Shown here piece after piece: positions 33,984 through 64,000 of a stretch of DNA of 64,000 nucleotides. The notes beneath the pieces were generated by a model. That model had not been told where the DNA came from. It was given only the letters and a program-made list of their open reading frames with translations, and made no database searches. The DNA is from Elmis aenea (lineage: Eukaryota; Arthropoda; Insecta; Coleoptera; Elmidae). The translations under genes were made by a program, and so were the position numbers. The stretch covers positions 31,049,467 to 31,113,466 of the forward strand of contig OX393584.1 in NCBI GenBank assembly GCA_947652605.1. The letters run 5' to 3'. The stretch's first letter is position 1, and each line of letters begins with the position of its first letter.

Positions 33984-33988
33984 AATAA

Positions 33989-34266: not shown

Positions 34267-34777
34267 CCTGATGTTTGTTTGTTATGAAATATTGTTTAAT
34301 TCCTTTAATAAAATAAATTGCAAAATATTAAACGAGTTTGTTTGTCTTTAAAAATGGTTTAGATGGAGTAAAGTTAAATAAAATATGTTGTAAAATACTT
34401 CAAATTCGATCCACATAGGGTGTAAAGTCTAATGACAAAATTTTATCATTTGCTTGAAAGATATATTGATTTCATGCTAAATATTTATTTATTCTATTGC
34501 TCAAAGTATTCGTTTTAGGGCACATGTATATTTAAATAATGCACATTATAGTGTTTTTTATTTAAAATAAAATATTTATTTAATGCGCACTTTTTAATAC
34601 TTTATTGCACAGAAAAATCGTTTTAGGACACACTACAAATAAAATATTGCTCAAAATAACATTTTTTTATGTAAAATAGATATATTATTTAATGCTAAAT
34701 AATTATTGTTCTATTGCTCAAAGTATTTCTTTTAGGGCACATGTATATTTAACTAATGCACGCTTAAAACGCACCCA

Positions 34778-36837: not shown

Positions 36838-38338
36838 GGCGACTATTTAAATGAGCAATAGATAAAATAAAACGTGCATTAATTGTGAGCATTTAGTAAA
36901 ATAATTGTGCATTTAGTAAAATATTTGTGCATTAAAAAAATTATTAGATCAATACAAAAAACTAATGTGCCATAAATAAATATGTTTGTAAATATATAAA
37001 AACATTTAAGCAATATTTTAAAAAAAAATGGCATTAGAATAAATGCTTGCGCATTTATAAATGTGGATGTTCCTTTAATAATATATTTGTACACTTAAAT
37101 AAATAAATGTACAATACATTCGTACCTCTACAAAAATATATAAACATCTCAAAAAATATTTGATCATTTGAAAAATTACATTCCCAATAGTTTAATTAAA
37201 TCACCATTTAAATATTGAATGCGCGCATTAATTAAATTATTTGAACCACCAGAAAAATATTTTGTAACCTAAAACGAATAATATGTGCTCTAACTTTGAG
37301 ATGCAATGTTAGCAACCACCGTAGATGTAGATTATTATACTACCAATAGAAGATGAAAAATGGAGAGATGGCCGATGTACTTGCCCAAAATTTAAAAAAA
37401 AATACATATGTAAACATTTACTAGGAGTTGCAATTAGGTTTAAATATCTTTTATGCTCCTCTAGAAGCAAAGAATTTGGCAATAGGAACAAAACGAAAAC
37501 GGGGGCGGCCATCAAAAGCAAGAAAAGCTATGATCGTTCAATAAAATAAGGCAACTATTTAAACGGGCATTATTTAAATATACATGAGCCTTAAGAACGA
37601 ATACTTTAAGCAATAGAACTATAAATATTTAGGTATATTTAGCTTATAGGCTAGGGGAGATTTTTTTTACAGCAAACATTGAATTTATCGACAAAATGTT
37701 TTATCATTTGCTTAAAAGATATATTTCTTTCATGCTAAATATTTATTATTATTTTAAATATTTCTAATGCACAAAGTATTCGTTATAATGCACATGTATA
37801 TTTAAATAATGCCCGCTTAAATTGTACCCTGATGTTTGTTTGTTATGAAATATTGTTTAATTCCTTTAATAAAATAAATTGCAAAATATTAAACGAGTTT
37901 GTTTGTCTTTAAAAATGGTTTAGATGGAGTAAAGTTAAATAAAATATGTTGTAAAATACTTCAAATTCGATCCACATAGGGTGTAAAGTCTAATGACAAA
38001 ATTTTATCATTTGCTTGAAAGATATATTGATTTCATGCTAAATATTTATTTATTCTATTGCTCAAAGTATTCGTTTTAGGGCACATGTATATTTAAATAA
38101 TGCACATCATAGTGTTTTTTATTTAAAATAAAATATTTATTTAATGCGCACTTTTTAATACTTTATTGCACAGAAAAATCGTTTTAGGACACACTACAAA
38201 TAAAATATTGCTCAAAATAACATTTTTTTATGTAAAATAGATATATTATTTAATGCTAAATAATTATTGTTCTATTGCTCAAAGTATTTCTTTTAGGGCA
38301 CATGTATATTTAACTAATGCACGCTTAAATCGCACCCA
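36838..38338 (+). mobile_element. MULE-like element, copy 2 (1,501 bp)
   Basis: Same ends, length and satellite site as copy 1, 3,561 bp downstream. Only a handful of substitutions are seen (for example AGATCAATAC for AGATCATTAC, and TGTGCTCTAAC for TGTGCACTAAC). The near identity shows segmental amplification, not a second insertion. Confidence 0.82.
37331..37544 (+). pseudogene. SWIM transposase relic, copy 2
   Basis: Identical in layout to copy 1, with the CxC at 37376-37384 and the same frameshift before the KRKRGRP tail. The shared break shows the protein was already dead before amplification. Confidence 0.75.
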
Positions 38339-39810
38339 TTTATTTTTTTACAATTTTGACAATGCGAATCGTAAGCAACGCATTTGTTCTCCAAACGCTG
38401 TAAATAAAAAGTTTGTGTTATGTAAGGAATGGTCAATAAAAGTTTAACCTTGAAAGAATAAAACCCACCCTCTAGTCAAACTAATTCCTTTTTTACAATT
38501 TTGACAATGGGAATCGTAAGCAACGCATTTGTTATCCAAACGCTGCAAATAAAAAGTTTGTGTTATGTAAGGTATGGTCAATAAACGATTTACTTTGGAA
38601 GAATATAAACTCATCCCTCTAGTCAAACTAATTTTTTTTTTTACAATTTTGACAATGCGAATCTTAAGCAACGCATTTGTTCTCCAAACGCTGTAAATAA
38701 AAAGTTTGTGTTATGTAAGGAATGGTCAATAAACGTTTAACCTTGAAAGAATCAAACCCACCCTCTAGTCAAACTAATTCCTTTTTTACAATTTTGACAA
38801 TGCGAATCGTAAGCAACGCATTTGTTCTCCAAACGCTGTAAATAAAAAGTTTGTGTTATGTAAGGAATGGTCAATAAACGGTTCATTTTGAATGAAAATA
38901 AACTCATCCCTCTAGTCAAACTAATTTTTTTTTTTACAATTTTGACAATGCGATTCGTAAGCAACGCATTTGTTCTCCAGACGCTGTAAATAAAAAGTTT
39001 GTGTTATGTAAGGAATGGTCAATAAACGTTTATCCTTGAAAGAATCAAACCCACCCTCTAGTCAAACTAATTCCTTTTTTACAATTTTGACAATGCGAAT
39101 CGTAAGCAACGCATTTGTTCTCCAAACGCTGTAAATAAAAAGTTTGTGTTATGTAAGGAATGGTCAATAAACGGTTCATTTTGAATGAAAATAAACTCAT
39201 CCCTCTAGTCAAACTAATTTTTTTTTTACAATTTTGACAATGCGAATCGTAAGCAACGCATTTGTTCTCCAAACGCTGTAAATAAAAAGTTTGTGTTATG
39301 TAAGGTTTGGTCAATAAACGTTTAACCTTGAAAGAATAAAACCCACCCTCTAGTCAAACTAATTCCTTTTTTACATTTTTGACAATGGGAATCGTAATCA
39401 ACGCATTTGTTCTCCAAACGATGTAAATAAAAAGTTTGTGTTATGTAAGGTATGGTTAATAAACGATTAAATTTGAAAGAAAATAAACTCATCCCTCTAG
39501 TCAAACTAATTTTTTTTTCTACAATTTTGACAATGCGAATCGTAAGCAACGCATTTGTTCTCCAAACGCTGTAAATAAAAAGTTTGTGTTATGTAAGGAA
39601 TGGTCAATAAACGTTTAACCTTGAAAGAATAAAACCCACCCTCTAGTCAAACTAATTCCTTTTTTACAATTTTGACAATGAGAATCGTAAGCAACGCATT
39701 TGTTCTCCAAACGCTGTAAATAAAAAGTTTGTGTTATGTAAGGTATGGTCAATAAACGGTTCACTTTGAAAGAAAATAAACTCATCCCTCTAGTCAAACA
39801 AATTTTTTTT
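38339..39810 (+). repeat. 147-bp satellite, block 3 (10 monomers)
   Basis: 1,472 bp, ten monomers or five dimers. It is four monomers shorter than block 2 and has the same first and last variants. Confidence 0.96.
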
Positions 39811-41311
39811 GGCGACTATTTAAATGAGCAATAGATAAAATAAAACGTGCATTAATTGTGAGCATTTAGTAAAATAATTGTGCATTTAGTAAAATATTTG
39901 TGCATTAAAAAAATTATTAGATCATTACAAAAAACTAATGTGCCATAAATAAATATGTTTGTAAATATATAAAAACATTTAAGCAATATTTTAAAAAAAA
40001 ATGGCATTAGAATAAATGCTTGCGCATTTATAAATGTGGATGTTCCTTTAATAATATATTTGTACACTTAAATAAATAAATGTACAATACATTCGTACCT
40101 CTACAAAAATATATAAACATCTCAAAAAATATTTGATCATTTGAAAAATTACATTCCCAATAGTTTAATTAAATCACCATTTAAATATTGAATGCGCGCA
40201 TTAATTAAATTATTTGAACCACCAGAAAAATATTTTGTAACCTAAAACGAATAATATGTGCACTAACTTTGAGATGCAATGTTAGCAACCACCGTAGATG
40301 TAGATTATTATACTACCAATAGAAGATGAAAAATGGAGAGATGGCCGATGTACTTGCCCAAAATTTAAAAAAAAATACATATGTAAACATTTACTAGGAG
40401 TTGCAATTAGGTTTAAATATCTTTTATGCTCCTCTAGAAGCAAAGAATTTGGCAATAGGAACAAAACGAAAACGGGGGCGGCCATCAAAAGCAAGAAAAG
40501 CTATGATCGTTCAATAAAATAAGGCAACTATTTAAACGGGCATTATTTAAATATACATGAGCCTTAAGAACGAATACTTTAAGCAATAGAACTATAAATA
40601 TTTAGGTATATTTAGCTTATAGGCTAGGGGAGATTTTTTTTACAGCAAACATTGAATTTATCGACAAAATGTTTTATCATTTGCTTAAAAGATATATTTC
40701 TTTCATGCTAAATATTTATTATTATTTTAAATATTTCTAATGCACAAAGTATTCGTTATAATGCACATGTATATTTAAATAATGCCCGCTTAAATTGTAC
40801 CCTGATGTTTGTTTGTTATGAAATATTGTTTAATTCCTTTAATAAAATAAATTGCAAAATATTAAACGAGTTTGTTTGTCTTTAAAAATGGTTTAGATGG
40901 AGTAAAGTTAAATAAAATATGTTGTAAAATACTTCAAATTCGATCCACATAGGGTGTAAAGTCTAATGACAAAATTTTATCATTTGCTTGAAAGATATAT
41001 TGATTTCATGCTAAATATTTATTTATTCTATTGCTCAAAGTATTCGTTTTAGGGCACATGTATATTTAAATAATGCACATTATAGTGTTTTTTATTTAAA
41101 ATAAAATATTTATTTAATGCGCACTTTTTAATACTTTATTGCACAGAAAAATCGTTTTAGGACACACTACAAATAAAATATTGCTCAAAATAACATTTTT
41201 TTATGTAAAATAGATATATTATTTAATGCTAAATAATTATTGTTCTATTGCTCAAAGTATTTCTTTTAGGGCACATGTATATTTAACTAATGCACGCTTA
41301 AATCGCACCCA
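39811..41311 (+). mobile_element. MULE-like element, copy 3 (1,501 bp)
   Basis: 2,973 bp after copy 2, with the same ends and target T run. At the sites checked it carries AGATCATTAC as in copies 1 and 4. Confidence 0.82.
40304..40517 (+). pseudogene. SWIM transposase relic, copy 3
   Basis: Same motifs and same frameshift as copies 1 and 2. Confidence 0.75.
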
Positions 41312-43077
41312 TTTTTTTTTTTACAATTTTGACAATGCGAATCGTAAGCAACGCATTTGTTCTCCAAACGCTGTAAATAAAAAGTTTGTGTTATGTAAGG
41401 AATGGTCAATAAACGTTTAACCTTGAAAGAATAAAACCCACCCTCTAGTCAAACTAATTCCTTTTTTACAATTTTGACAATGGGAATCGTAAGCAACGCA
41501 TTTGTTATCCAAACGCTGCAAATAAAAAGTTTGTGTTATGTAAGGTATGGTCAATAAACGATTTACTTTGGAAGAATATAAACTCATCCCTCTAGTCAAA
41601 CTAATTTTTTTTTTTACAATTTTGACAATGCGAATCTTAAGCAACGCATTTGTTCTCCAAACGCTGTAAATAAAAAGTTTGTGTTATGTAAGGAATGGTC
41701 AATAAACGTTTAACCTTGAAAGAATAAAACCCACCCTCTAGTCAAACTGATTCCTTTTTTACAATTTTAACAATGCGAATCGTAAGCAACGCATCTGTTC
41801 TCCAAACGCTGTAAATAAAAAGTTTGTGTTATGTAAGGTATGGTCAATAAACGATTTACTTTGGAAGAATATAAACTCATCCCTCTAGTCAAACAAATTT
41901 TTTTTTTTACAATTTTGACAATGCGAATCTTAAGCAAAGCATTTGTTCTCCAAACGCTGTAAATAAAAAGTTTGTGTTATGTAAGGAATGGTCAATAAAC
42001 GTTTAACCTTGAAAGAATCAAACCCACCCTCTAGTCAAACTAATTCCTTTTTTACAATTTTGACAATGCGAATCGTAAGCAACGCATTTGTTCTCCAAAC
42101 GCTGTAAATAAAAAGTTTGTGTTATGTAAGGAATGGTCAATAAACGGTTCATTTTGAATGAAAATAAACTCATCCCTCTAGTCAAACTAATTTTTTTTTT
42201 TACAATTTTGACAATGCGATTCGTAAGCAACGCATTTGTTCTCCAGATGCTGTAAATAAAAAGTTTGTGTTATGTAAGGAATGGTCAATAAACGTTTATC
42301 CTTGAAAGAATCAAACCCACCCTCTAGTCAAACTTATTCCTTTTTTACAATTTTGACAATGCGAATCGTAAGCAACGCATTTGTTCTCCAAACGCTCTAA
42401 ATAAAAAGTTTGTGTTATGTAAGGAATGGTCAATAAACGGTTCATTTTGAATGAAAATAAACTCATCCCTCTAGTCAAACTAATTTTTTTTTTTACAATT
42501 TTGACAATGCGAATCGTAAGCAACGCATTTGTTCTCCAAACGCTGTAAATAAAAAGTTTGTGTTATGTAAGGTTTGGTCAATAAAAGTTTAACCTTGAAA
42601 GAATAAAACCCACCCTCTAGTCAAACTAATTCCTTTTTTACATTTTTGACAATGGGAATCGTAATCAACGCATTTGTTCTCCAAACGATGTAAATAAAAA
42701 GTTTGTGTTATGTAAGGTATGGTTAATAAACGATTAAATTTGAAAGAAAATAAACTCATCCCTCTAGTCAAACAAATTTTTTTTTCTACAATTTTGACAA
42801 TGCGAATCGTAAGCAACGCATTTGTTCTCCAAACGCTGTAAATAAAAAGTTTGTGTTATGTAAGGAATGGTCAATAAACGTTTAACCTTGAAAGAATAAA
42901 ACCCACCCTCTAGTCAAACTAATTCCTTTTTTACAATTTTGACAATGAGAATCGTAAGCAACGCATTTGTTCTCCAAACGCTGTAAATAAAAAGTTTGTG
43001 TTATGTAAGGTATGGTCAATAAACGGTTCACTTTGAAAGAAAATAAACTCATCCCTCTAGTCAAACAAATTTTTTTT
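41312..43077 (+). repeat. 147-bp satellite, block 4 (12 monomers)
   Basis: 1,766 bp, twelve monomers or six dimers. It again ends with the ACAATGAGAATCG variant before the insert. Confidence 0.96.
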
Positions 43078-44578
43078 GGCGACTATTTAAATGAGCAATA
43101 GATAAAATAAAACGTGCATTAATTGTGAGCATTTAGTAAAATAATTGTGCATTTAGTAAAATATTTGTGCATTAAAAAAATTATTAGATCATTACAAAAA
43201 ACTAATGTGCCATAAATAAATATGTTTGTAAATATATAAAAACATTTAAGCAATATTTTTAAAAAAAATGGCATTAGAATAAATGCTTGCGCATTTATAA
43301 ATGTGGATGTTCCTTTAATAATATATTTGTACACTTAAATAAATAAATGTACAATACATTCGTACCTCTACAAAAATATATAAACATCTCAAAAAATATT
43401 TGATCATTTGAAAAATTACATTCCCAATAGTTTAATTAAATCACCATTTAAATATTGAATGCGCGCATTAATTAAATTATTTGAACCACCAGAAAAATAT
43501 TTTGTAACCTAAAACGAATAATATGTGCACTAACTTTGAGATGCAATGTTAGCAACCACCGTAGATGTAGATTATTATACTACCAATAGAAGATGAAAAA
43601 TGGAGAGATGGCCGATGTACTTGCCCAAAATTTAAAAAAAAATACATATGTAAACATTTACTAGGAGTTGCAATTAGGTTTAAATATCTTTTATGCTCCT
43701 CTAGAAGCAAAGAATTTGGCAATAGGAACAAAACGAAAACGGGGGCGGCCATCAAAAGCAAGAAAAGCTATGATCGTTCAATAAAATAAGGCAACTATTT
43801 AAACGGGCATTATTTAAATATACATGAGCCTTAAGAACGAATACTTTAAGCAATAGAACTATAAATATTTAGGTATATTTAGCTTATAGGCTAGGGGAGA
43901 TTTTTTTTACAGCAAACATTGAATTTATCGACAAAATGTTTTATCATTTGCTTAAAAGATATATTTCTTTCATGCTAAATATTTATTATTATTTTAAATA
44001 TTTCTAATGCACAAAGTATTCGTTATAATGCACATGTATATTTAAATAATGCCCGCTTAAATTGTACCCTGATGTTTGTTTGTTATGAAATATTGTTTAA
44101 TTCCTTTAATAAAATAAATTGCAAAATATTAAACGAGTTTGTTTGTCTTTAAAAATGGTTTAGATGGAGTAAAGTTAAATAAAATATGTTGTAAAATACT
44201 TCAAATTCGATCCACATAGGGTGTAAAGTCTAATGACAAAATTTTATCATTTGCTTGAAAGATATATTGATTTCATGCTAAATATTTATTTATTCTATTG
44301 CTCAAAGTATTCGTTTTAGGGCACATGTATATTTAAATAATGCACATTATAGTGTTTTTTATTTAAAGTAAAATATTTATTTAATGCGCACTTTTTAATA
44401 CTTTATTGCACAGAAAAATCGTTTTAGGACACACTACAAATAAAATATTGCTCAAAATAACATTTTTTTATGTAAAATAGATATATTATTTAATGCTAAA
44501 TAATTATTGTTCTATTGCTCAAAGTATTTCTTTTAGGGCACATGTATATTTAACTAATGCACGCTTAAATCGCACCCA
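43078..44578 (+). mobile_element. MULE-like element, copy 4 (1,501 bp)
   Basis: 3,267 bp after copy 3, with the same ends and length. Small private changes include TTTAAAGTAAAAT near 44365 and ATTTTTAAAAAAAATGG near 43255. Confidence 0.82.
43571..43784 (+). pseudogene. SWIM transposase relic, copy 4
   Basis: Same motifs and same frameshift as the other copies. Confidence 0.75.
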
Positions 44579-47032
44579 TTTTTTTTTTTACAATTTTGAC
44601 AATGCGAATCGTAAGCAACGCATTTGTTCTCCAAACGCTGTAAATAAAAAGTTTGTGTTATGTAAGGAATGGTCAATAAACGTTTAACCTTGAAAGAATA
44701 AAACCCACCCTCTAGTCAAACTAATTCCTTTTTTACAATTTTGACAATGGGAATCGTAAGCAACGCATTTGTTATCCAAACGCTGCAAATAAAAAGTTTG
44801 TGTTATGTAAGGTATGGTCAATAAACGATTTACTTTGGAAGAATATAAACTCATCCCTCTAGTCAAACTAATTTTTTTTTTTACAATTTTGACAATGCGA
44901 ATCTTAAGCAACGCATTTGTTCTCCAAACGCTGTAAATAAAAAGTTTGTGTTATGTAAGGAATGGTCAATAAACGTTTAACCTTGAAAGAATAAAACCCA
45001 CCCTCTAGTCAAACTGATTCCTTTTTTACAATTTTAACAATGCGAATCGTAAGCAACGCATCTGTTCTCCAAACGCTGTAAATAAAAAGTTTGTGTTATG
45101 TAAGGTATGGTCAATAAACGATTTACTTTGGAAGAATATAAACTCATCCCTCTAGTCAAACTAATTTTTTTTTTTACAATTTTGACAATGCGAATCTTAA
45201 GCAACGCATTTGTTCTCCAAACGCTGTAAATAAAAAGTTTGTGTTATGTAAGGAATGGTCAATAAACGTTTAACCTTGAAAGAATCAAACCCACCCTCTA
45301 GTCAAACTAATTCCTTTTTTACAATTTTGACAATGCGAATCGTAAGCAACGCATTTGTTCTCCAAACGCTGTAAATAAAAAGTTTGTGTTATGTAAGGAA
45401 TGGTCAATAAACGGTTCATTTTGAATGAAAATAAACTCATCCCTCTAGTCAAACTAATTTTTTTTTTTTTTATTTTGACAATGCGAATCGTAAGCAACGC
45501 ATTTGTTCTCCAAACGCTGTAAATAAAAAGTTTGTGTTATGTAAGGAATGGTCAATAAACGTTTAACCTTGAAAGAATAAAACCCACCCTCTAGTCAAAC
45601 TGATTCCTTTTTTACAATTTTAACAATGCGAATCGTAAGCAACGCATCTGTTCTCCAAACGCTGTAAATAAAAAGTTTGTGTTATGTAAGGTATGGTCAA
45701 TAAACGATTTACTTTGGAAGAATATAAACTCATCCCTCTAGTCAAACTAATTTTTTTTTTTACAATTTTGACAATGCGAATCTTAAGCTACGCATTTGTT
45801 CTCCAAACGCTGTAAATAAAAAGTTTGTGTTATGTAAGGAATGGTCAATAAACGTTTAACCTTGAAAGAATAAAACCCACCCTCTAGTCAAACTGATTTC
45901 TTTTTTACAATTTTAACAATGCGAATCGTAAGCAACGCATCTGTTCTCCAAACGCTGTAAATAAAAAGTTTGTGTTATGTAAGGTATGGTCAATAAACGA
46001 TTTACTTTGGAAGAATATAAACTCATCCCTCTAGTCAAACTAATTTTTTTTTTTACAATTTTGACAATGCGAATCTTAAGCAACGCATTTGTTCTCCAAA
46101 CGCTGTAAATAAAAAGTTTGTGTTATGTAAGGAATGGTCAATAAACGTTTAACCTTGAAAGAATAAAACCCACCCTCTAGTCAAACTGATTCCTTTTTTA
46201 CAATTTTAACAATGCGAATCGTAAGCAACGCATCTGTTCTCCAAACGCTGTAAATAAAAAGTTTGTGTTATGTAAGGTATGGTCAATAAACGATTTACTT
46301 TGGAAGAATATAAACTCATCCCTCTAGTCAAACTAATTTTTTTTTTTACAATTTTGACAATGCGAATCTTAAGCAACGCATTTGTTCTCCAAACGCTGTA
46401 AATAAAAAGTTTGTGTTATGTAAGGAATGGTCAATAAACGTTTAACCTTGAAAGAATAAAACCCACCCTCTAGTCAAACTGATTCCTTTTTTACAATTTT
46501 AACAATGCGAATCGTAAGCAACGCATCTGTTCTCCAAACGCTGTAAATAAAAAGTTTGTGTTATGTAAGGTATGGTCAATAAACGATTTACTTTGGAAGA
46601 ATATAAACTCATCCCTCTAGTCAAACAAATTTTTTTTTTACAATTTTGACAATGCGAATCTTAAGCAACGCATTTGTTCTCCAAACGCTGTAAATAAAAA
46701 GTTTGTGTTATGTAAGGAATGGTCAATAAACGTTTAACCTTGAAAGAATCAAACCCACCCTCTAGTCAAACTAATTCCCATTTTTGCAATTTTGACAATG
46801 CGAATCGTAAGCAAGGCATTTGTTCTCCAAACGCTGTAAATAAAAAGTTTGTGTTATGTAAGGTATGGTCAATAAACGATTTACTTTGGAAGAATATAAA
46901 CTCATCCCTCTAGTCAAACAAATTTTTTTTTTTTACAATTTTGACAATGCGAATCTTAAGCAACGCATTTGTTTTCCAAACGCTGTAAATAGAAAGTTTG
47001 TGTTATGTAAGGAATGGTCAATAAACGTTTAA
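44579..47032 (+). repeat. 147-bp satellite, block 5 (~16.7 monomers)
   Basis: 2,454 bp. The right half is homogenised into one dimer type repeated about five times between 44990 and 46700: the A monomer with CAAACTGATTCC, TTTTAACAATGCG and CGCATCTGTTC, then the B monomer with TTTGGAAGAATATAAAC and GCGAATCTTAAGC. The array stops after AATAAACGTTTAA; AACGTTCCCTTTCC is unique. Confidence 0.96.
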
Positions 47033-49479: not shown

Positions 49480-50639
49480 AGTGTAAGTATAAAAAAATAA
49501 AGTAAGATTTTATGCTCATTAAGAATATTTACAACCTCTACTAAACATTTTGCAAGTGAATATCTGTTATCGAAACAAATACGATCAAAATTTAAAAAAA
49601 GTAGATTTAGAGCGGCCCTCTGATAGGTATGTGAAATTTTGCCTTAATTGATTCCTGCTGTTTTAGAGATTATTAAAGCTGCTTTGTCAAAAGGACGGTG
49701 TTTAAGAGATGCAGGTTACACCGTTTTCCGATACATCACTGGACTTTAAAATGTGTTTTTATTCTATTTTTATTATATTTGAATTAAATCTGCTTTAAGC
49801 TTGCCCTTAAGCGTTATTTTATAAATTACGGACGAATTTTATCTACGCAAAAGTTTTAATTTACGGGTTGTTCAGCACTGTTCATGTTTCTGTAAATGCG
49901 CATCCGGGATAAGCGGGCTTCATGAGCTAAGCTTTCCAATCTTAATTCTCACATTAACAGTGCATATCAGCAGAGAAAATCTCTAATGCGGTAGAATGTG
50001 GCATGGCAAGAAAAATCGAATGCAATGTGTTAAGAGTACTTGAATGTAAACCATCGGGTGATGTGTGCAATTCCGAACACAGCATTAATGTCCATTATTT
50101 GAGAACTACTGATGCAGATATACTCTCAGCCAAGGCAAAAACGACGACACGAGATCACGATCCGTCATCTTAGTTCGGACTCGACGCTTCCTGGTAGGAA
50201 TGCGGACAGCGACAGCTCCGGAGTATCACTACGCTCCCGCTGGGTGTCTGTCACTGCGATGGCATGTCAGAAATTAGTCTCATGATGCTTCTTTTTTTCT
50301 TAAAGTGACAATGAATTGTTACTCAAATAAGACACACTTCTTTCTCGAAAAACTTGTTTTATACTTGCATTTTGATTAGCTATTATTTTCATAACGCACT
50401 TAAATCCATGCAAAATATAAGCAAAAGTCTCTACGTTAATTGACAAAAAAATAAATTCGCAGATTCTCGGCTGACAAGGTTTAACGAACAGTTTTTATGT
50501 GTCTGGTCCTATGATAATTAAATAAAACGGGCAAATTGTTTAAACAAAAATCATAACAGGCTCTGAAAAAGTAAAAATTAAAGCTAATAATTTGCTCTTT
50601 AGCAAACAAGCCATAATTTTAAACATGTCTGCTTATAGA
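49480..50639. other. AT-rich DNA with one GC-rich patch
   Basis: At 50140-50270 composition shifts strongly (GTTCGGACTCGACGCTTCCT, CTACGCTCCCGCTGGGTGTC). No frame, tRNA fold or known repeat was found in it. It could be an old exon, a transposon piece or a regulatory island. Confidence 0.4.
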
Positions 50640-50830
50640 GAGTGTTCCAAATAGCATTTCTAGCTTGAGGATCTCGTTTATTATTGGAGATGCAGGTTTG
50701 CTTAAGTTAGATGAATTATTCTTAAGTGTGAGACTAGCTACATCTATTTTTTAAAGTACAAAATTCGTTGCACTTCAGAAGTTATAGCAGAAATATGAAA
50801 ATGTTGAATTTCTTTTTTTTCTCATTTTCT
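50640..50830 (-). repeat. interspersed repeat, inverted copy of 14570-14762
   Basis: In reverse complement it shows AAATTCAACATTTTCATATT, GCTATAACTTCTGAAGTGCA, AATTTTGTACTTTAAAAAA, AAGCAAACCTGCATCTCC and a GGAACACTC end. It is the same phrase order as 14570-14762 in the opposite direction. Confidence 0.6.
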
Positions 50831-53800
50831 CTCATTTTCTCTCTTTTTTGTCTTAATCAAAAGATCAATTTTATATGTATTTTCCGAGGCACTTTTTTAT
50901 GTAAAATGTAACTAGCATTTTACTCTTTTTTTATCACTTTCTATTTTTGAGATATTACGCTTAATTTTATTTTTTCTAATGGGTCGCCAAGTTGGCTTGG
51001 AATCGTTAAAAATAATTGCATTTCGGTACGTGGTAGATGTTTAGATCTAGTTTATAATCACTTTACAAAAACTTTAGTTTAGATTCTTACTAGTCTCCGA
51101 GATCCCCGTGTTTTTCATATTAAAACATAGGTACAATCTGAAACACCAAAATTAATTTTAAATATCTTCTGTTTTTATTCTTACAGTGTATTTTATTAAA
51201 TAAATAATGAGTTACCAGCATTTGCTCTTAATAACGAATTTAGTTTTTATTTTTAAGTAATTAGCATAAGTACCTATATCATAATCAGCTGATGCTGTAT
51301 AATAATATCTAATCACTAATTTACACTTCAAAACTTTATAATAGTTTCAGTTTATCATACGCCACAATTCTACTAAATATTTAATTTTTTGTGTCAGACA
51401 CAGATAACATTTAGTATATTTCAACGATGTATTTTATTCCACCGTATTAAAATTATTAGCGTTATTCTATCTACAAAGTTTGAAAATATAAATTATTTCG
51501 AATAGGAATATGGTAATCTCATAAATTTAATTTTAAATGGAATTGGTCATATTAATTATAATATCGGAGTTTATATGAAAATTTAATTGGGCTGGTTATT
51601 TAATAACAACTTCGAAATAAATTATTACACAAAAAATTATTTTTAATTAAGTTTTAACTGTGCGATATCCCCGTTAGTTTTAGATCGATCTACCTATGTT
51701 GTATATCGATGAGCACGATTTAGTGTAATACAATTTAATGAATTTCTTGTTTTCAAAATTGAACTGTAGCGTGAAAGAATTAATTGCAATTTATTTAGTT
51801 ATACCGGGTTTGATTCTCGCACTCCTATAATTTTGTTATTTTCAGAGGAAGCTCCCATAAACATAATATTTTTGTAAAACGTCGAAAATTTCCTATAAAA
51901 CGACTTCAAAAAAATTTTCAACGATGAAATATGCCAGACCTGCTAAAACGAAACCTGCTAATTACAATTATTTAACTATCCAACGAGCGAGCAGATCAAC
52001 CGACGTCAAATATGGGGCCCGGATGCGAGAAGTAAAATTGCGTCTTCGATCTAAATTATATCTTTTACGTTATTAAACAGGATGTCGCGGAGATTATCAT
52101 CACCTCGGTTATATCATTTGTCTTTTTCTTATACATAGTTATAGTTTGCTTGAGGCTTGAGGTTGTTACAAACACCAATACCACAGAATACACGAAAAGA
52201 ACGTATGTCGTGAGTTAACTTTAAACGTTGAGATTAGATCGAGTCCAATACAATTATCAAGTGTTCGCAAATAAGCGTCATTTGATGCCACATTAAATAC
52301 TACAAAATGTTTATCACTGCAATAAGCTATACGTTACCGTGTTCTTAATGATAGTTACTTTTTTTTGAAAATCATTTCTAGCGTTTCTTTTATCGATTGC
52401 GTTGCAATTCCTAAAAGTGCTTCGAAAATTGCTTCAAACATAAAGCAGCTAATATTTGTCATTTTCCACTCGATTTGGCGGCACGCGACCCTTGCGACAT
52501 TGAAAATGTCACCCTCGCGAAGGGGATACTTCAAAATAACCGCCCCATCCCTTTGCTTGTCTTGTGGGATTAAACCGACAACTGTAATTAAATATTAAAT
52601 AGATTTGGAAATTGTGTATACTTGTGTAATTGGCATGTAAAATAGCTGGATCAGTGACAGGGTTGGGCAAGAACGAGTATATTAAATGTATGGCAGTACA
52701 GAACACGAGTACAACTCTAGTAGATGATTGATTACATCTTTACTAAAGTACTCGGTTCGCACACAGCTAATGATTTGTTTCTGCTTACACCGTGTTCCAT
52801 ATGTAATTTAAATATACTCTCGTTTACTTCATGTTATTAATTGATTTCAAATCATTTATTTATTTATTTAAATAAGCAATTATTGCATGCTATTATATCA
52901 TTAAAACGATAAGAAGACTAATGAGCTATGTTGTCTTGTGACAGCGTTAAGGAAAATATAATTACGGCACAAATAATTCATTACGCGTGCTAATTAGTTG
53001 CCAAATTTTAAATTACGAAGTCCAAACATTTATAATGAGTTGTCAAAAATATCGCTAAGAAAAGTTCGTTATTTCAATATCATGCTTTGCACATTTTGCA
53101 TGCATGCTTTAGTTCTTTTTTCCTCGTAATGTAAGTATTTAACAAACAACAGCACGGGTTGACTAATGTGCACCATAAAAAGGTCACCATACCGAAATGA
53201 ATTCATGTTATGGAACACCATTAATTAAAACTGTATAATTAGCACATTAAACTATAAATATCTAATTAATTTCTAACTATTAATTTTGACTTCGATTATA
53301 TATACATCAGAGCATCAAAGCCAACCTATAATACTTTAAATCCAACTGTCTAGATGTTTTTTTTTTCAAATTAATGACATAGAACAAGTCAATAAAATTG
53401 CAAATATAATCTTTTTTACTGCTCACAGGACTCACAGGAGCCTGGACATCATCCTACAATTTGTTTTTTTTTAACGCGCTAATTGAACGTAGAAGGGCAA
53501 ACGTCTACAAAAAAAAAAATCCTTCTATGTGTGGACACTTTGTTGCCATTAGTCGCGATCACACACGCTTTGCCGGTTCTCTGTGTTTAATATTAATAAA
53601 AGAGTTTACCCAATCACTGTGGCTGTAAAATGGCCAAACGATAAAATAATCCAACTAATAGAAATGTACAGTGATGCACAATGTCTGTGGAACCCACAAG
53701 ATTCAAAACACAACATTCCATTATAAAACACAAAGAACTCACGTACAAATTTCAGAGAATAATTTTGAAAAAGACTTCATAAATTATTTAAAAATATCCG

Positions 53801-55066: not shown

Positions 55067-55101
55067 AATGTTTATGCATCAGACATTTAAAAAAATTAAT
55101 G
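55067..55101 (+). repeat. 35-bp direct repeat, left copy (target-site duplication)
   Basis: It ends in TATGCATCAGACATTTAAAA followed by AAATTAATG. It matches 59742-59776 at 34 of 35 positions (mismatch at 55072), the last 29 being perfect. The satellite begins immediately after it with AAGAAGTTTGAAGC. Confidence 0.9.
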
Positions 55102-58100
55102 AAGAAGTTTGAAGCTATTTGCGTTAATTTTAAGAAAATCGATTTTTTTGTCCAAAAAAAGTACAAAGACTATAGCCTTTGCACTTTTCCCATTTTCCTC
55201 GAAAAATTAAAAATCGTATTTAGGGCCTAATGATCCTTAATTTGTTCATAAATAACGTGTATAAGAAGTTTGAAGCTATTTGCGTTAATTATAAGAAAAT
55301 CGATTTTTTTGTCGAAAAAAAGTACAAAGACTATAGCCTTTGCATTTTTCCCATTTTCCTCGAAAAATTAAAAATCGTATTTAGGGCCTAATGATCCTTA
55401 ATTTGTTCATAAATAACGTGTATAAGAAGTTTAAAGCTATTTGCGTTAATTATAAGAAAATCGATTTTTTTGTCGAAAAAAAGTACAAAGACTATAAGCC
55501 TTTGCATTTTTCCCATTTTCCTCGAAAAATTAAAAATCGTATTTAGGGCCTAATGATCCTTAATTTGTTCATAAATAACGTGTATAAGAAGTTTAAAGCT
55601 ATTTGCGTTAATTATAAGAAAATCGATTTTTTTGTCGAAAAAAAGTACAAAGACTATAGCCTTTGCACTTTTCCCATTTTCCTCGAAAAATTAAAAATCG
55701 TATTTAGAGCCTAATAATCCTTAATTTGCTCATAACTAACGTGTACAAGAAGTTTGAAGCCATTTGCTGTAGTTTTAAGAAAATCGATTTTTTTGTCGAA
55801 AAAAAGTACAAAGACTATATACCCTTTGCACTTTTCCCATTTTCCTCGAAAAATTAAAAATCGTATTTAGGGCCTAATGATCCTTAATTTGTTCATAAAT
55901 AACGTGTATAAGAAGTTTAAAGCTATTTGCGTTAATTATAAGAAAATCGATTTTTTTGTCGAAAAAAAGTACAAAGACTATAGCCTTTGCATTTTTCCCA
56001 TTTTCCTCGAAAAATTAAAAATCGTATTTAGGGCCTAATGATCCTTAATTTGTTCATAAATAACGTGTATAAGAAGTTTAAAGCTATTTGCGTTAATTAT
56101 AAGAAAATCGATTTTTTTGTCGAAAAAAAGTACAAAGACTATAGCCTTTGCATTTTTCCCATTTTCCTCGAAAAATTAAAAATCGTATTTAGGGCCTAAT
56201 GATCCTTAATTTGTTCATAAATAACGTGTATAAGAAGTTTAAAGCTATTTGCGTTAATTTTAAGAAAATCGATTTTTTTGTCGAAAAAAAGTACAAAGAC
56301 TATTATAGCCTTTGCATTTTTCCCATTTTCCTCGAAAAATTAAAAATCGTATTTAGGGCCTAATGATCCTTAATTTGTCCATAAATAACGTGTATAAGAA
56401 GTTTAAAGCTATTTGCGTTAATTATAAGAAAATCGATTTTTTTGTCGAAAAAAAGTACAAAGACTATATACCCTTTGCACTTTTCCCATTTTCTTCGAAA
56501 AATTAAAAATCGTATTTAGGGCCTAATGATCCTTAATTTGTTCATAAACAACGTGCATAAGAAGTTTAAAGCTATTTGCGTTAATTATAAGAAAATCGAT
56601 TTTTTTGTCGAAAAAAAGTACAAAGACTATAGCCTTTGCACTTTTCCCATTTTCCTCGAAAAATTAAAAATCGTATTTAGGGCCTAATGATCCTTAATTT
56701 CTTCATAAACAACGTGTATAAGAAGTTTAAAGCTATTTGCGTTAATTATAAGAAAATCGATTTTTTTGTCGAAAAAAAGTACAAAGACTATAGCCTTTGC
56801 ACTTTTCCCATTTTCCTCGAAAAATTAAAAATCGTATTTAGGGCCTAATGATCCTTAATTTCTTCATAAACAACGTGTATAAGAAGTTTAAAGCTATTTG
56901 CGTTAATTATAAGAAAATCGATTTTTTTGTCGAAAAAAAGTACAAAGACTATAGCCTTTGCACTTTTCCCATTTTCCTCGAAAAATTAAAAATCGTATTT
57001 AGGGCCTAATGATCCTTAATTTGTTCATAAATAACGTGTATAAGAAGTTTAAAGCTATTTGCGTTAATTATAAGAAAATCGATTTTTTTGTCAAAAAAAA
57101 GTACAAAGACTATAGCCTTTGCATTTTTCCCATTTTCCTCGAAAAATTAAAAATCGTATTTAGGGCCTAATGATCCTTAATTTGTCCATAAATAACGTGT
57201 ATAAGAAGTTTAAAGCTATTTGCGTTAATTATAAGAAAATCGATTTTTTTGTCGAAAAAAAGTACAAAGACTATATACCCTTTGCACATTTCCCATTTTC
57301 TTCGAAAAATTAAAAATCGTATTTAGGGCCTAATGATCCTTAATTTGTTCATAAACAACGTGTATAAGAAGTTTAAAGCTATTTGCGTTAATTATAAGAA
57401 AATCGATTTTTTTGTCGAAAAAAAGTACAAAGACTATAGCCTTTGCACTTTTCCCATTTTCCTCGAAAAATTAAAAATCGTATTTAGGGTCTAATGATCC
57501 TTAATTTCTTCATAAACAACGTGTATAAGAAGTTTAAAGCTATTTGCGTTAATTATAAGAAAATCGATTTTTTTGTCGAAAAAAAGTACAAAGACTTATA
57601 GCCTTTGCACTTTTCCCATTTTCCTCGAAAAATTAAAAATCGTATTTAGGGCCTAATGATCCTTAATTTGTTCATAAATAACGTGTATAAGAAGTTTAAA
57701 GCTATTTGCGTTAATTATAAGAAAATCGAATTTTTTGACGAAAAAAAGTACAAAGACTATACCCTTTGCACTTTTCCCATTTTCCTCGAAAAATTAAAAA
57801 TCGTATTTAGGGCCTAATAATCCTTAATTTGTTCATAAACAACGTGTATAAGAAGTTTAAAGCTATTTGCGTTAATTATAAGAAAATCGATTTTTTTGTC
57901 GAAAAAAAGTACAAAGACTATAGCGTTTGCACTTTTCCCATTTTCCTCGAAAAATTAAAAATCGTATTTGGGGCCTAATGATCCTTAATTTGTTCATAAA
58001 TAACGTGTATAAGAAGTTTAAAGCTATTTGCGTTAATTATAAGAAAATCGTTTTTTTTGTCCAAAAAAAGTACAAAGACTATAGCCTTTGCAATTTTTCC

Positions 58101-58141
58101 ATTTTCCTCGAAAAATTAAAAATCGTATTTAGGGCCTAATG
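55102..58141 (+). repeat. ~160-bp satellite array, about 19 monomers, 3' part of a LINE composite
   Basis: Tandem monomers with landmarks AAGAAGTTTAAAGCTATTTG, AAAATCGATTTTTTTGTCG, GTACAAAGACTATAGCC and CGTATTTAGGGCCTAATGAT. It is closest to the arrays at 1-1597 and 59801-64000. A five-monomer period of ~806 bp is visible (TATATACCCTTTGCAC at 56466 and 57272; TTGTCCATAAATAACG at 56378 and 57184). The right edge, within GGGCCTAATGA, joins directly to the LINE endonuclease reading frame. Confidence 0.96.
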
Positions 58142-58856
58142 AAGTTCAATACACTGCGCTTTGTGATCCGAAATGCAGGATTCATAAACTTCAGCAGAGT
58201 ATTTAACATCGCTAGTTACTAGAATATTATCTACACATGTGCTACTATTATGAGTTACACGTGTAGGTTCTTTAATGGTATATGTCATATTAAAGCAGTT
58301 TAACAGGTGCACAAGTCTGTCAACACTATTCGTATTTGTTTTTGGCAGGAAATTTATGTTAAAATCCCCCGCAATAATTAATGTTTTTTGCTCACTATAA
58401 GCTACGTCCAATAAAAGATTCATTTTTTTAAAGAAAACATCAGAACTGTGTCCAGGCGGCCTGTAAACAACAACAATTAGCAGCGAAACATTTTTAACTT
58501 TAAATTCGGCTGCAGCACACTCAAAGACATAACACTCAGACAGCGAATTGATGTCCTCTCTTATTTTCCGCAAAAGGTTTGATCGGGAATATAAAGCCAC
58601 ACCACCATGTGATTTTCGCTCAGGTCTGCAGTATGATGTTACTAAATTAAAACCACTTGGGCACATGCATTCCAAACTTCCGACAGTTTGCCAGTGCTCG
58701 GTAATACACAAGAAGTCAAACTGAAAATCACTCTAAAAAACTTCCAGCTGTTCAATGCAATTTGACAGACATTGAACGTTCTGATGAAAAATTCGTACAA
58801 TGTTTATGTTATCTACCGCACTGATATTTGTCAAGTTATTTTTAAGCAAATTTTGT
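58142..58856 (-). pseudogene. LINE ORF2 endonuclease domain, truncated at satellite junction
   Basis: An apurinic-like endonuclease domain of a non-LTR retrotransposon. In order: INIVRIFHQNVQCLSN (catalytic N region), FDFLCITEHW (catalytic E), LLIVVVYRPPG, TLIIAGDFNINFLP (D and N), VDNILVTSD and CISDHKAQCIEL (the SDH with catalytic H). All core motifs are present. One in-frame TAG at 58733-58735 falls between LEVF and SDFQF, so this copy is not intact. Its frame overlaps the end of ORF1 by a few bases and has no upstream ATG. Immediately after CIELH the next codon is a stop supplied by satellite sequence (CATTAGGCCC). No reverse transcriptase follows. The clade is most like CR1/L2, judged from ORF1. 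Confidence 0.9.
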
Positions 58857-58862
58857 GATTTA

Positions 58863-59636
58863 TTACAACCGGGCTGTCGATTCCCGAAAAAAATTAGATT
58901 TTATAAAGAAACGGCGTACACCAACACCCATAGGCCAAAAGTCGGGCTTCAGTAGGGTCGCAGCCAAATTCTTATCTATTTCTACCTTAAAAGAGGCGTA
59001 TGACGGACTTCTCGCCTGTAACTGTTCGCATTTGATAGTAGCGTCCGGTAGCGAATGTTTAATAAATTGCTCCAGATCAGCAATAGTTGTTTTTTTTTCC
59101 AGACGACATACATGTACGTACGCTTTTTGAGCAGGCTCAGGAGCTGCTCTAAGACTACATGACGTATTTGTACTTGACGTACCAACAATTATGGGATTCC
59201 TTGTTTTCGCACTCGTCACACGAGAATTAGTTGTTGCATTGCTATTGGAGTCCAAATTTGCATGTAACACTTGACCGCTATTTATGGTCAACTTTTTGCT
59301 AGTCTCGTTATCACTCACTAACGTCGTCACTTTGTCGATCTTCGCTGACCTTTTACTTTCGTCTGTTTGTTTTACCAATTTAAACTCGTCAATGATATTA
59401 CTTTGTTGTTGTATAATCTTAGTTTGTTTTTGAATAATGTCTTTACAATGTTTTATTTCACATTTCAGTTCATCTAGAGCGACTTTTAGGTGTTCCGACA
59501 GAAAAGAACTAAATTGTTTCATAAATTCATCAGATCGAAGAACGTCTTTTACACAGTTTTTTAAATCTTCACAAACATTTTGATGAGGCTGATTCGTATC
59601 CAGATCAATGTTTTGTTTATCTTTTCTTGGCGCCAT
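58863..59636 (-). CDS. CR1-like LINE ORF1 protein (257 aa)
   Basis: An uninterrupted 257-codon frame starting MAPRKDKQNIDLD and ending FFRESTARL. Residues about 20-100 are charged and helical, with a Q/I/K-rich stretch (KDIIQKQTKIIQQQSNIIDE) that could form a coiled coil. Residues about 100-165 are S/T/N-rich and probably disordered. The C-terminal ~85 residues hold YVHVCRLEKKTTIADLEQFI and LLKPDFWPMGVGVRRFF, the conserved 'DFWP.GV.VRRF' block of insect CR1-type ORF1 proteins. It probably encodes an RNA-binding chaperone that coats the element's RNA. It lies just upstream of the endonuclease frame. That ORF1 is intact while the endonuclease has one stop and the RT is gone suggests a fairly young copy or a half-LINE that keeps ORF1. 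Confidence 0.88.
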   Translation of the reverse strand: MAPRKDKQNIDLDTNQPHQNVCEDLKNCVKDVLRSDEFMKQFSSFLSEHLKVALDELKCEIKHCKDIIQKQTKIIQQQSNIIDEFKLVKQTDESKRSAKIDKVTTLVSDNETSKKLTINSGQVLHANLDSNSNATTNSRVTSAKTRNPIIVGTSSTNTSCSLRAAPEPAQKAYVHVCRLEKKTTIADLEQFIKHSLPDATIKCEQLQARSPSYASFKVEIDKNLAATLLKPDFWPMGVGVRRFFIKSNFFRESTARL

Positions 59637-59741
59637 AGCTCACAGCTCAAAAATTTAACACTTTAAAAGAAAGACAACACTTTTAAACTAATACAGGAGC
59701 GCACTGGGAACACATCCGTCACGCTCGAAAGTCACACACAT
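59637..59741 (-). promoter_or_regulatory. short 5' leader of the LINE, candidate internal promoter
   Basis: About 105 bp between the direct repeat and the ORF1 ATG, clearly GC-richer than its surroundings (ACTTTCGAGCGTGACGGATG, CAGTGCGCTCCTGT). LINEs carry an internal promoter in this position. Here it is inferred from location only. Because the direct repeat abuts it, the 5' end looks complete or nearly so. Confidence 0.45.
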
Positions 59742-59776
59742 AATGTGTATGCATCAGACATTTAAAAAAATTAATG
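59742..59776 (+). repeat. 35-bp direct repeat, right copy
   Basis: Matches 55067-55101 at 34 of 35 positions. It is followed by TTAAATATACACAACAATTC and then the next satellite array. Confidence 0.9.
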
Positions 59777-59800
59777 TTAAATATACACAACAATTCTATT

Positions 59801-62800
59801 TAGCCTTTGCACTTTTCCCATTTTCCTCGAAAAATTAAAAATCGTATTTAGGGCCTAATGATCCTTAATTTGTTCATAAATAACGTGTATAAGAAGTTTG
59901 AAGCTATTTGCGTTAATTTTAAGAAAATCGATTGTTTTGTCGAAAAAAAGTACGAAGACTATACCTTTGCACTTTTCCCATTTTCCTCGAAAAATTGAAA
60001 ATCGTATATAGGGACTAATAATCCTTAATTTGTTCATACATAACGTGTATAAGAAGTTTGAAGCTATTTGCGTTAATTTTAAGAAAATCGATTTTTTTGT
60101 CGAAAAAAAGTACAAAGACACCTTTCCACTTTTCCCATTTTCCTCTAAAAATTGAAAATCGTATATAGGGCCTAATAATCCTTAATTTGTTCATAAATAA
60201 CGTGTATAAGAAGTTTGAAGCTATTTGCGTTAATTTTAAGAAAGTACAAAGACTATAGCCTTTGCACTTTTCCCATTTTCCTCGAAAAATTAAAAATCAT
60301 ATTTAGGGCCTAATAATCCTTAAATTGTTCATAAATAACGTGTATAAGAAGTTTAAAGCTATTTGCGTTAATTATAAGCAAATCGATTTTTTTGTCGAAA
60401 AAAAGTACAAAGACTATAGCCTTTGCACTTTTCCCATTTTCCTCGAAAAAATAAAAATCGTGTTTAGGGCCTAATAATCCTTAATTTGTTCATACATAAC
60501 GTGTATAAGAAGTTTGAAGCTATTTGCGTTAATTTTAAGAAAATCGATTTTTTTGTCGAAAAAAAGTACAAAGACTATAGCCTTTGCACTTTTCCCATTT
60601 TCCTCGAAAAATTAAAAATCGTATTTAGGGCCTAATAATCCTTAATTTGTTCATACATAACGTGTAAAAGAAGTTTGAAGCTATTTGCGTTAATTTAAAA
60701 AAAATCGATTTTTTTGTCGAAAAAAAGTACAAAGACTATAGCCTTTGCACTTTTCCCATTTTCCTCGAAAAATTAAAAATCGTATTTAGGGCCTAATGAT
60801 ACATAATTTGTTCATAAATAACGTGTATAAGAAGTTTGAAGCTATTTGCGTTAATTTTAAGAAAATCGATTTTTTTGTCGAAAAAAAGTACAAAGACTAT
60901 AGCGTTTGCACTTTTCCCATTTTCCTCGAAAAATTAAACATCGTATTTAGGGCCTAATAATTCTTAATTTGTTCATAAATAACGTGTATAAGAAGTTTAA
61001 AGCTATTTGCGTTAATTATAAGAAAATCGATTTTTTTGTCGAAAAAAAGCACTTTTCCCATTTTCCTCGAAAAATTAAAAATCGTATTTAGGGCCTAATA
61101 ATCCTTAATTTGTTCATACATAACGTGTATAAGAAGTTTGAAGCTATTTGCGTTAATTTTAAGAAAATCGATTTTTTTGTCGAAAAAAAGTACAAAGACT
61201 ATAGCCTTTGCACTTTTCCCATTTTCCTCGAAAAAATAAAAATCGTGTTTAGGGCCTAATAATCCTTAATTTGTTCATACATAACGTGTATAAGAAGTTT
61301 GAAGCTATTTGCGTTAATTTTAAGAAAATCGATTTTTTTGTCGAAAAAAAGTACAAAGACTATAGCCTTTGCACTTTTCCCATTTTCCTCGAAAAATTAA
61401 AAATCGTATTTAGGGCCTAATAATCCTTAATTTGTTCATACATAACGTGTAAAAGAAGTTTGAAGCTATTTGCGTTAATTTAAAAAAAATCGATTTTTTT
61501 GTCGAAAAAAAGTACAAAGACTATAGCCTTTGCACTTTTCCCATTTTCCTCGAAAAATTAAAAATCGTATTTAGGGCCTAATGATACATAATTTGTTCAT
61601 AAATAACGTGTATAAGAAGTTTGAAGCTATTTGCGTTAATTTTAAGAAAATCGATTTTTTTGTCGAAAAAAAGTACAAAGACTATAGCGTTTGCACTTTT
61701 CCCATTTTCCTCGAAAAATTAAACATCGTATTTAGGGCCTAATAATTCTTAATTTGTTCATAAATAACGTGTATAAGAAGTTTAAAGCTATTTGCGTTAA
61801 TTATAAGAAAATCGATTTTTTTGTCGAAAAAAAGCACTTTTCCCATTTTCCTCGAAAAATTAAAAATCGTATTTAGGGCCTAATAATCCTTAATTTGTTC
61901 ATACATAACGTGTATAAGAAGTTTGAAGCTATTTGCGTTAATTTTAAGAAAATCGATTTTTTTGTCGAAAAAAAGTACAAAGACTATAGCCTTTGCACTT
62001 TTCCCATTTTCCTCGAAAAAATAAAAATCGTGTTTAGGGCCTAATAATCCTTAATTTGTTCATACATAACGTGTATAAGAAGTTTGAAGCTATTTGCGTT
62101 AATTTTAAGAAAATCGATTTTTTTGTCGAAAAAAAGTACAAAGACTATAGCCTTTGCACTTTTCCCATTTTCCTCGAAAAATTAAAAATCGTATTTAGGG
62201 CCTAATAATCCTTAATTTGTTCATACATAACGTGTAAAAGAAGTTTGAAGCTATTTGCGTTAATTTAAAAAAAATCGATTTTTTTGTCGAAAAAAAGTAC
62301 AAAGACTATAGCCTTTGCACTTTTCCCATTTTCCTCGAAAAATTAAAAATCGTATTTAGGGCCTAATGATACATAATTTGTTCATAAATAACGTGTATAA
62401 GAAGTTTGAAGCTATTTGCGTTAATTTTAAGAAAATCGATTTTTTTGTCGAAAAAAAGTACAAAGACTATAGCGTTTGCACTTTTCCCATTTTCCTCGAA
62501 AAATTAAACATCGTATTTAGGGCCTAATAATTCTTAATTTGTTCATAAATAACGTGTATAAGAAGTTTAAAGCTATTTGCGTTAATTATAAGAAAATCGA
62601 TTTTTTTGTCGAAAAAAAGCACTTTTCCCATTTTCCTCGAAAAATTAAAAATCGTATTTAGGGCCTAATAATCCTTAATTTGTTCATACATAACGTGTAT
62701 AAGAAGTTTGAAGCTATTTGCGTTAATTTTAAGAAAATCGATTTTTTTGTCGAAAAAAAGTACAAAGACTATAGCCAGCCTTTGCACTTTTCCCATTTTC

Positions 62801-64000
62801 CTCGAAAAATTAAAAATCGTATTTAGGGCCTAATAATCCTTAATTTGTTCATACATAACGTGTATAAGAAGTTTGAAGCTATTTGCGTTAATTTAAAAAA
62901 AATCGATTTTTTTGTCGAAAAAAAGTACAAAGACTATAGCCTTTGCACTTTTCCCATTTTCCTCGAAAAATTAAAAATCGTATTTAGGGCCTAATGATAC
63001 TTAATTTGTTCATAAATAACGTGTATAAGAAGTTTGAAGCTATTTGCGTTAATTTTAAGAAAATCGATTTTTTTGTCGAAAAAAAGTACAAAGACTATAG
63101 CGTTTGCACTTTTCCCATTTTCCTCGAAAAATTAAACATCGTATTTAGGGCCTAATAATTCTTAATTTGTTCATAAATAACGTGTATAAGAAGTTTAAAG
63201 CTATTTGCGTTAATTATAAGAAAATCGATTTTTTTGTCGAAAAAAAGTACAAAGACTTTGCACTTTTCCCATTTTCCTCGAAAAATTAAAAATCGTATTT
63301 AGGGCCTAATATTCCTTAATTTATTCATACATAACGTGTATAAGAAGTTTGAAGCTATTTGCGTTAATTTTAAGAAAATCGATTTTTTTGTCCAAAAAAA
63401 GTACAAAGACTATATATATATACTATAGCGTTTGCACTTTTCCCATTTTCCTCGAAAAATTAAAAATCGTATTTAGGGCCTAATGATCCTTAATTTGTTC
63501 ATAAATAACGTGTATAAGAAGTTTTAAGCTATTTGCGTTAATTATAAGAAAATCGATTTTTTTGTCGAAAAAAAGTACAAAGACTATTATAGCCTTTGCA
63601 CTTTTCCCATTTTCCTCGAAAAATTAAAAATCGTATTTAGGGCCTAATGATCCTTAATTTGTTCATAAATAACGTGTATAAGAAGTTTAAAGCTATTTGC
63701 GTTAATTTTAAGAAAATCGATTTTTTTGTCGAAAAAAAGTACAAAGTATAGCCTTTGCACTTTTCCCATTTTCCTCGAAAAATTAAAAATCGTATTTAGG
63801 GCCTAATGACCCTTAATTTGTTCATAAATAACGTGTATAAGAAGTTTTAAGCTATTTGCGTTAATTATAAGAAAATCGATTTTTTTGTCGAAAAAAAGTA
63901 CAAAGACTTAGCCTTTGCACTTTTCCCATTTTCCTCGAAAAATTAAAAATTGTATTTAGGGCCTAATGATCCTTAATTTGTTCATACATAACGTGTATAA
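59801..64000 (+). repeat. ~160-bp satellite array running off the window, five-monomer period
   Basis: About 26 monomers in the same orientation as 55102-58141. The array begins at (TA)GCCTTTGCAC, the same phase as the edge of the array at 1597. Between about 60260 and 62750 a five-monomer block of ~782-787 bp is repeated three times. Markers are the shortened monomer GTCGAAAAAAAGCACTTTTC (61040, 61825, 62610), CGTGTAAAAGAAGTTTG (60660, 61447, 62229) and TCGTGTTTAGGGCC (60457, 61244, 62030). The array has no visible right end. Confidence 0.96.

Follow-up and report, generated by a model that had tools for sequence, protein, structure and literature searches.

A LINE 5' part and a satellite block inside one 35-bp duplication in Elmis aenea: a tentative case for insertion by target-primed synthesis with a template switch

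INTRODUCTION

How does a satellite array come to stand at a new site in a genome? The question is raised by a locus of the beetle Elmis aenea at which the 5' part of a long interspersed nuclear element (LINE) passes directly into a block of satellite monomers, the two lying together between the copies of a 35-bp direct repeat. The locus occupies positions 55067-59776 of the stretch of 64,000 nucleotides analysed here (C9:31049467-31113466; "the window"), and the assembly searched comprises 516 Mb. Target-primed reverse transcription of LINEs makes flanking duplications, and a previous sequence-only reading had proposed that LINE and satellite were retrotransposed as one unit from a chimeric RNA, with the satellite as a tail carried by the LINE and hence a means of seeding satellites to new loci. 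Other proposed satellite carriers are extrachromosomal circles and break repair. The relations between satellites and transposons have been reviewed, and transposons such as Helentrons have been proposed as carriers (PMC12628747, PMC7492417); transcribed, putatively mobile satellites with hammerhead ribozymes have also been described (PMC8490949).

RESULTS

On the plus strand, the order at the locus is flank, 35-bp repeat, satellite, antisense LINE, 35-bp repeat, a 24-bp flank, and then a second array of this satellite, larger than the first. The anatomy described by the sequence-only reading was borne out. The left repeat copy, on the satellite side (55067-55101, plus strand), and the right copy, on the LINE 5' side (59742-59776, plus strand), match at 34 of 35 positions; the satellite block, which we call A55 (55102-58142, plus strand), holds 18 full monomers of 161-164 bp and one piece of 132 bp, in keeping with the count of about 19; and the minus-strand ORF1 (first open reading frame) and endonuclease do run directly into satellite, with the junction at 58142. 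The best match of 35 bases between 200 random pairs of zones in the window was 24/35. A search of the whole assembly for the 35-mer, tolerating up to three mismatches, gave no place other than these two (control, 0), so that its origin as a dispersed repeat, a possibility named with the sequence-only reading, can be rejected. The 24-bp flank (59777-59800, plus strand) is followed by the adjacent array, R59 (59801-64000, plus strand, continuing past the window to ~C9:31115134). Both the 35-bp repeat and the 24-bp flank are non-satellite, and the composite is thus not a LINE inserted into a satellite array; what it shares with LINE template-switch chimeras is the direct fusion of two unrelated sequences between a single pair of target-site duplications.

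The LINE part of the composite (58143-59741, minus strand) is the 5' part of an apurinic/apyrimidinic endonuclease (APE)-type LINE, with a short leader, ORF1, and endonuclease and without reverse transcriptase or 3' tail. ORF1 is held in an open frame of 258 codons (58863-59639, minus strand; first ATG at 59636). The endonuclease part of ORF2 (58136-58732, minus strand; Pfam Exo_endo_phos, E 1e-10) is cut near the end of the domain and has a stop codon just upstream in its frame. A protein search with the endonuclease piece gave 10 relatives, with 44% identity for the one ranked first; none was found for ORF1, and no solved structure matched the endonuclease fragment. The 5' border of this LINE reads (A)TGTGTGTGA...TTCGAGCG, the same start as in three other copies (L031, L032, and L043). 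Given this shared start, and as copies that cover the junction continue into reverse transcriptase and other copies end in (TTA)n, the window copy most likely holds the true 5' end of the element and lacks the true 3' end, judging from these alignments. The shared start may correspond to the start of the transcript.

At the satellite/LINE junction (58137-58144, plus strand), 3 bp (TCA in LINE sense) are common to both parents, and the 8-mer TAATGAAG found there recurs across the border between left repeat and satellite (55097-55104). In a whole-genome search with the LINE, 39 of 75 candidates were scored and part of the 243 matches was listed. Among the matches listed, all six other places that cover the junction base read on into TTCAGTATATACTACC..., which is reverse transcriptase, and none (0/6) reads into satellite; L034 (C163) and L036 (C1) share flanks and may be alleles, in which case the six places may be five. 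A (TTA)n tail is present in five of the six copies compared, the match of the sixth, L033, stopping earlier. The idea that the satellite is the natural 3' tail of the LINE is rejected because of these two observations, and the proposal of a satellite tail carried by the LINE is so far not supported. Nor is the composite an ordinary copy of the family, which would have reverse transcriptase and a (TTA)n tail; at its primer side stands satellite, with (TTA)n absent and no other LINE-type 3' tail or poly(A) in its place. No second LINE/satellite junction, as a family of such composites would have, appeared among the matches listed or in the ~363 kb of sequence examined, where the best other match was 22/27.

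Several observations concern the LINE family itself. In L035 (C5), a relative of the LINE that the sequence-only reading called CR1-like, the ORF2 frame spans 989 codons and includes both endonuclease and reverse transcriptase (RVT_1), and ORF1 has a weak zinc-binding match of 24.2 bits, below the cut-off of 27.4. In L031, a deletion form, the reverse transcriptase is missing, so that the 3' end of the copy follows upon its ORF1 and endonuclease. The flanks of L034 and L036 are near-identical, with a 1.5-kb insertion in one of them, and C163 appears to represent an alternative haplotype of the region at C1:66.95 Mb. A piece of another reverse transcriptase lies at 21927-22430 of the window (plus strand; RVT_1, E 2e-8).

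Within the LINE part there is also a sharp switch of ORF1 module at 58814/58815, between two LINE types (seen across L031-L036) whose common ORF2 is ~99% identical. Over ORF1, 98.6-99.4% of the aligned bases of the window copy agree with L031 when scored in separate comparison windows (97.2% over the whole BLAST match), and BLAST gives no match there to L033-L036; beyond the ORF1/ORF2 border, the agreement with L033-L036 is 99.1-99.3%. One ORF2 thus occurs with two ORF1 modules that share 37% identity over 99 residues, and 4.6-kb relatives with the same ORF2 and a different ORF1 exist. This sharp exchange of modules suggests that the lineage tends to form chimeras.

The satellite block A55 begins at monomer position 1 (AAGAAGTTT) and stops at position 132. 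Four of its 18 full monomers were used as BLAST queries, together with one R59 control, against 13 satellite sets (the arrays that surfaced among the listed genome matches, nearly all of them on one contig), and all four matched R59 best, at 97.5-98.8% identity. A local origin of A55, from the array across the LINE, is likely on this comparison though not proven, given a margin of only 9-18 bits and the size of the R59 set. Growth inside A55 after the insertion is indicated by identical neighbouring monomers (6=7 and 10=11) and by a block spacing of 807 bp. The satellite had no matches (0) in viral and prokaryote contigs. No hammerhead or other Rfam RNA was found in the window at the gathering cut-off; at a loose threshold there were eight weak matches (best E 0.0098), every one of which fell well short of its cut-off and none of which was to a hammerhead.

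A second satellite insert in the window, consisting of 2.2 monomers of a related family without any LINE (14107-14463, plus strand), is enclosed by repeat copies at 14053-14113 and 14464-14524 (plus strand) that match at 60 of 61 positions. Seven base pairs, TAAGAAG, are common to repeat and monomer and could belong to either, so the duplication is 54-61 bp long; within these seven ambiguous bases, the insert starts at the same point of the monomer as A55. The flanks belong to a dispersed repeat, and the first 40 bases of the 61-bp repeat, with up to three mismatches, occur at the two places in the window and once on C2. An empty-site paralog of the flanks, 76-79% identical, lies at 50633-51007 (minus strand); it has the repeat once and no satellite, and it aligns straight through, with a score of 405 for the joined against 331 for the filled site. 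The satellite at 14107-14463 was inserted with a target duplication. The proposal that satellites can be seeded to new loci gains support from this independent insert with its own duplication and empty site; the part that made a LINE tail the route does not.

Other arrays of the genome show further features at their edges and within them. Among 19 edges on the position-1 side, a count that leaves out edges at repeated spacers in L053, L055, L057, and L058, seven lie at monomer positions 69-74, near the tip of a predicted hairpin (59801; 1600; L048:293; L052:1016; L055:1034; L057:828; L059:1044). A binomial estimate multiplied by 161 window choices gives 5e-4 for this clustering, the position window having been picked after the edges were seen. 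The array at 32494-47032, of a 145-bp satellite, has GTTTAA at both edges and includes four copies of a 1,441-bp unit that are 99.8-100% identical. A non-satellite spacer of ~265 bp lies within an array at 1027-1293, and in L053 a spacer with the same edges occurs three times at nearly equal monomer positions, i.e., amplified with the array. In L055, a 178-bp spacer (L055:1638-1815) stands between satellite positions 33 and 29, flanked by TTAAG/TTAAA, and is found repeatedly through the array, as if a transposon had inserted there and then been amplified together with the satellite. Several candidate signals were discarded. Exact repeats of 9-11 bp near array edges in L051, L052, L054, L055, and L057 were taken as chance, a flank shared by the arrays at 1600 and 59801 was rejected since 30 and 35 of 300 shuffles scored as high under two scorings, and a duplication around the array at 8176-10774 was likewise rejected.

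DISCUSSION

The reading that we tentatively favor, with a probability of roughly 0.4, is a single insertion by LINE-type target-primed synthesis, in which the satellite was copied first, the enzyme then changed to a LINE RNA template and copied it as far as its 5' end, and the array grew later. In this scheme, the target end ...TTAATG-3' would have been extended on satellite sequence from monomer position 1. We infer an RNA template, which was probably transcribed from the array lying 24 bp away. At the 3-bp overlap, where the endonuclease region ends, the reverse transcriptase would have changed template to LINE RNA, and synthesis would then have run off the 5' end of that RNA; filling in of a 35-nt stagger would have produced the 35-bp duplication, and unequal exchange would later have enlarged the satellite block. 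Several features fit such a course. The repeat matches at 34 of 35 positions and occurs at these two places only, the second insert has a duplication, an empty-site paralog, and an agreeing start, the tested A55 monomers are closest to R59, the LINE lineage shows an exchange of ORF1 modules, and the identical neighboring monomers point to later growth. With the plus strand taken as the first strand, target end, satellite, and antisense LINE down to its 5' end follow one another with the polarity of target-primed reverse transcription and a satellite-to-LINE switch, and run-off at the RNA 5' end would give the LINE start common to L031, L032, and L043. If there was one event, the site before insertion would have consisted of the left flank to 55066, a single 35-mer, and TTAAATATACACAAC. 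The earlier idea of one retrotransposed unit is in this respect retained, with the duplication-bounded unit, the LINE start as in three copies, and the polarity in its favor; the pre-made chimeric RNA that it invoked is the part that has so far found no support.

A number of results weigh against this scheme. The composite is a single case (n=1). None of five ordinary copies of the LINE (L031 and L034-L037) has a target-site duplication above the null, so the machinery of this LINE may not make 35-bp duplications: with -60 to +40 bp scanned around the ends and six random positions per copy as control, the ordinary copies score 4.5-5.5, the control maxima are 5.5-8.0, and the composite scores 32.5. 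The tail boundary used for these scans lay ahead of the (TTA)n run in L035 and within it in L037; the scan range covers both placements. The five copies are themselves heterogeneous, L031 being internally deleted, L037 5'-truncated, and L034 and L036 perhaps alleles, so that they are possibly four; L033, the match of which ends before the 3' end, does not enter the counts of tails and duplications. Another candidate, a long duplication at L031, was rejected because it is diverged, off the LINE edge, and probably a local repeat. Among satellite stretches with both edges, 16 of 17 have no such duplication, the only one that does being 14107-14463, so duplication-flanked insertion is not the usual origin of arrays. 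A55 taken alone is among the 16 and acquires its flanking duplication only when LINE and satellite are taken as one unit. A number of the 17 stretches are segments of longer arrays that spacers interrupt, those of L057 and L058 were excluded, and the random control landed within arrays for several of the stretches (maxima to 89) and cannot serve for these. R59, being the largest of the 13 satellite sets, had the most chances of giving the best match to A55. The matches of the older LINE copies L038, L041, and L039 end 9, 12, and 32 bases inside the 5' border. The start that the second insert shares with A55 may stem from the TAAGAAG common to its target and monomer. Finally, TAATGAAG stands at both edges of the satellite, as a separate insertion of the satellite would explain.

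That last point leads to the alternative that we take most seriously, though we hold it to be unlikely: a 3'-truncated LINE was inserted with the 35-bp duplication, and satellite entered at its 3' border afterwards by microhomology-led repair. Of 20,000 random joins, 5.6% reach at least 8 bp of edge repeat, a figure judged to be inflated by in-phase satellite edges, and the insert at 14107-14463 demonstrates that satellite can insert by itself elsewhere. Yet in such a history the satellite must have struck the border between repeat and LINE within a few bases out of ~1,600, and it is the LINE copies tested that have no duplication of their own and the satellite-only insert that has a long one. 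The absence of duplications from ordinary LINE copies would also suit the repair of a staggered break, in which an end was copied from the neighboring array DNA and joined to a captured fragment of LINE complementary DNA, the 35-nt overhangs then being filled; the possible local origin of the satellite and the short junction overlaps (3 bp here and 7 bp at the second insert) point the same way. This account is nevertheless improbable, as it needs two independent captures and leaves it to chance that LINE polarity and 5' end fit reverse transcription.

A pre-made chimeric RNA, from a LINE copy reading into a satellite array and retrotransposed whole, would yield the same anatomy as the scheme we favor, with the LINE 5' end intact. 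We hold it to be about as improbable as break repair: the six other listed places at the junction base all proceed into reverse transcriptase, no further junction is found among the matches listed, and the satellite is closest to the neighboring array R59, with the proviso that this is the largest set. Replacement of the 3' half of a full-length LINE, inserted with the 35-bp duplication, by satellite through gene conversion or deletion with filler has in its favor that 4.6-kb relatives with the same ORF2 (and another ORF1) exist; it would have had to stop exactly at the border of the duplication and seems very improbable. The least probable explanation of all is an assembly join: arrays are hard to assemble, but a false join is not expected to yield a 34/35 duplication at both outer edges that is otherwise absent from the assembly.

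Related arrangements have been described: LINE template-switch chimeras flanked by direct repeats (PMC2104539), composite retrotransposons that contain tandem repeats (PMC4432496), and LINEs that target satellite (PMC8091179). A close parallel is given by the chimeric retrogenes of Magnaporthe (WEIRD, Mg-SINE, and MGL), which are ascribed to RNA template switching by LINE reverse transcriptase and in which unrelated sequences are fused and flanked together by direct repeats, 14 bp long in the tripartite case. They differ in that their 3' part is usually a LINE 3' fragment, whereas here the LINE is the 5' part and the satellite is the primer-side part, and the portion of that paper covered describes no microhomology at the switch sites, compared with 3 bp here (PMC2104539). 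The SVA/LAVA composites resemble our locus as retroposed units with tandem repeats but are families with defined 5' and 3' modules, while the junction here is known from one place (PMC4432496). LINE and satellite are closely associated at one locus in Cuscuta (CUS-TR24) too; there, the LINE targets the satellite, whereas here it is the duplication that encloses the satellite, and the target is non-satellite sequence beside an array (PMC8091179). Dispersed arrays in bivalves are similar as short arrays at new sites, for which monomer breakpoints and palindromes have been considered (PMC5139131); they are attributed to Helentrons (PMC7492417) or to other insertion or recombination events, and the text covered mentions no 35-61-bp duplications around them (PMC5139131). 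Among the publications listed by our searches, titles and the beginnings of abstracts showed no LINE chimera with a satellite array at its primer side. As a single case, the composite suggests a new form of LINE template-switch chimera.

A broader proposition can be framed from the two inserts, although we regard it as doubtful: satellite transcripts might serve as templates in LINE-type target-primed synthesis, with a fixed start in the monomer, duplications of 35-61 bp, and, at times, pickup of LINE RNA, so that satellites would be seeded as retroposons and then expanded by unequal exchange. Its marks, a fixed start, a long duplication, and empty sites, can be counted genome-wide, and it bears on the question of how satellites arrive at new sites. 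A unit with satellite at its primer side and a LINE 5' end at the other, inside a duplication that occurs nowhere else in the assembly, would show directly, by its anatomy, that an array can be seeded by reverse transcription.

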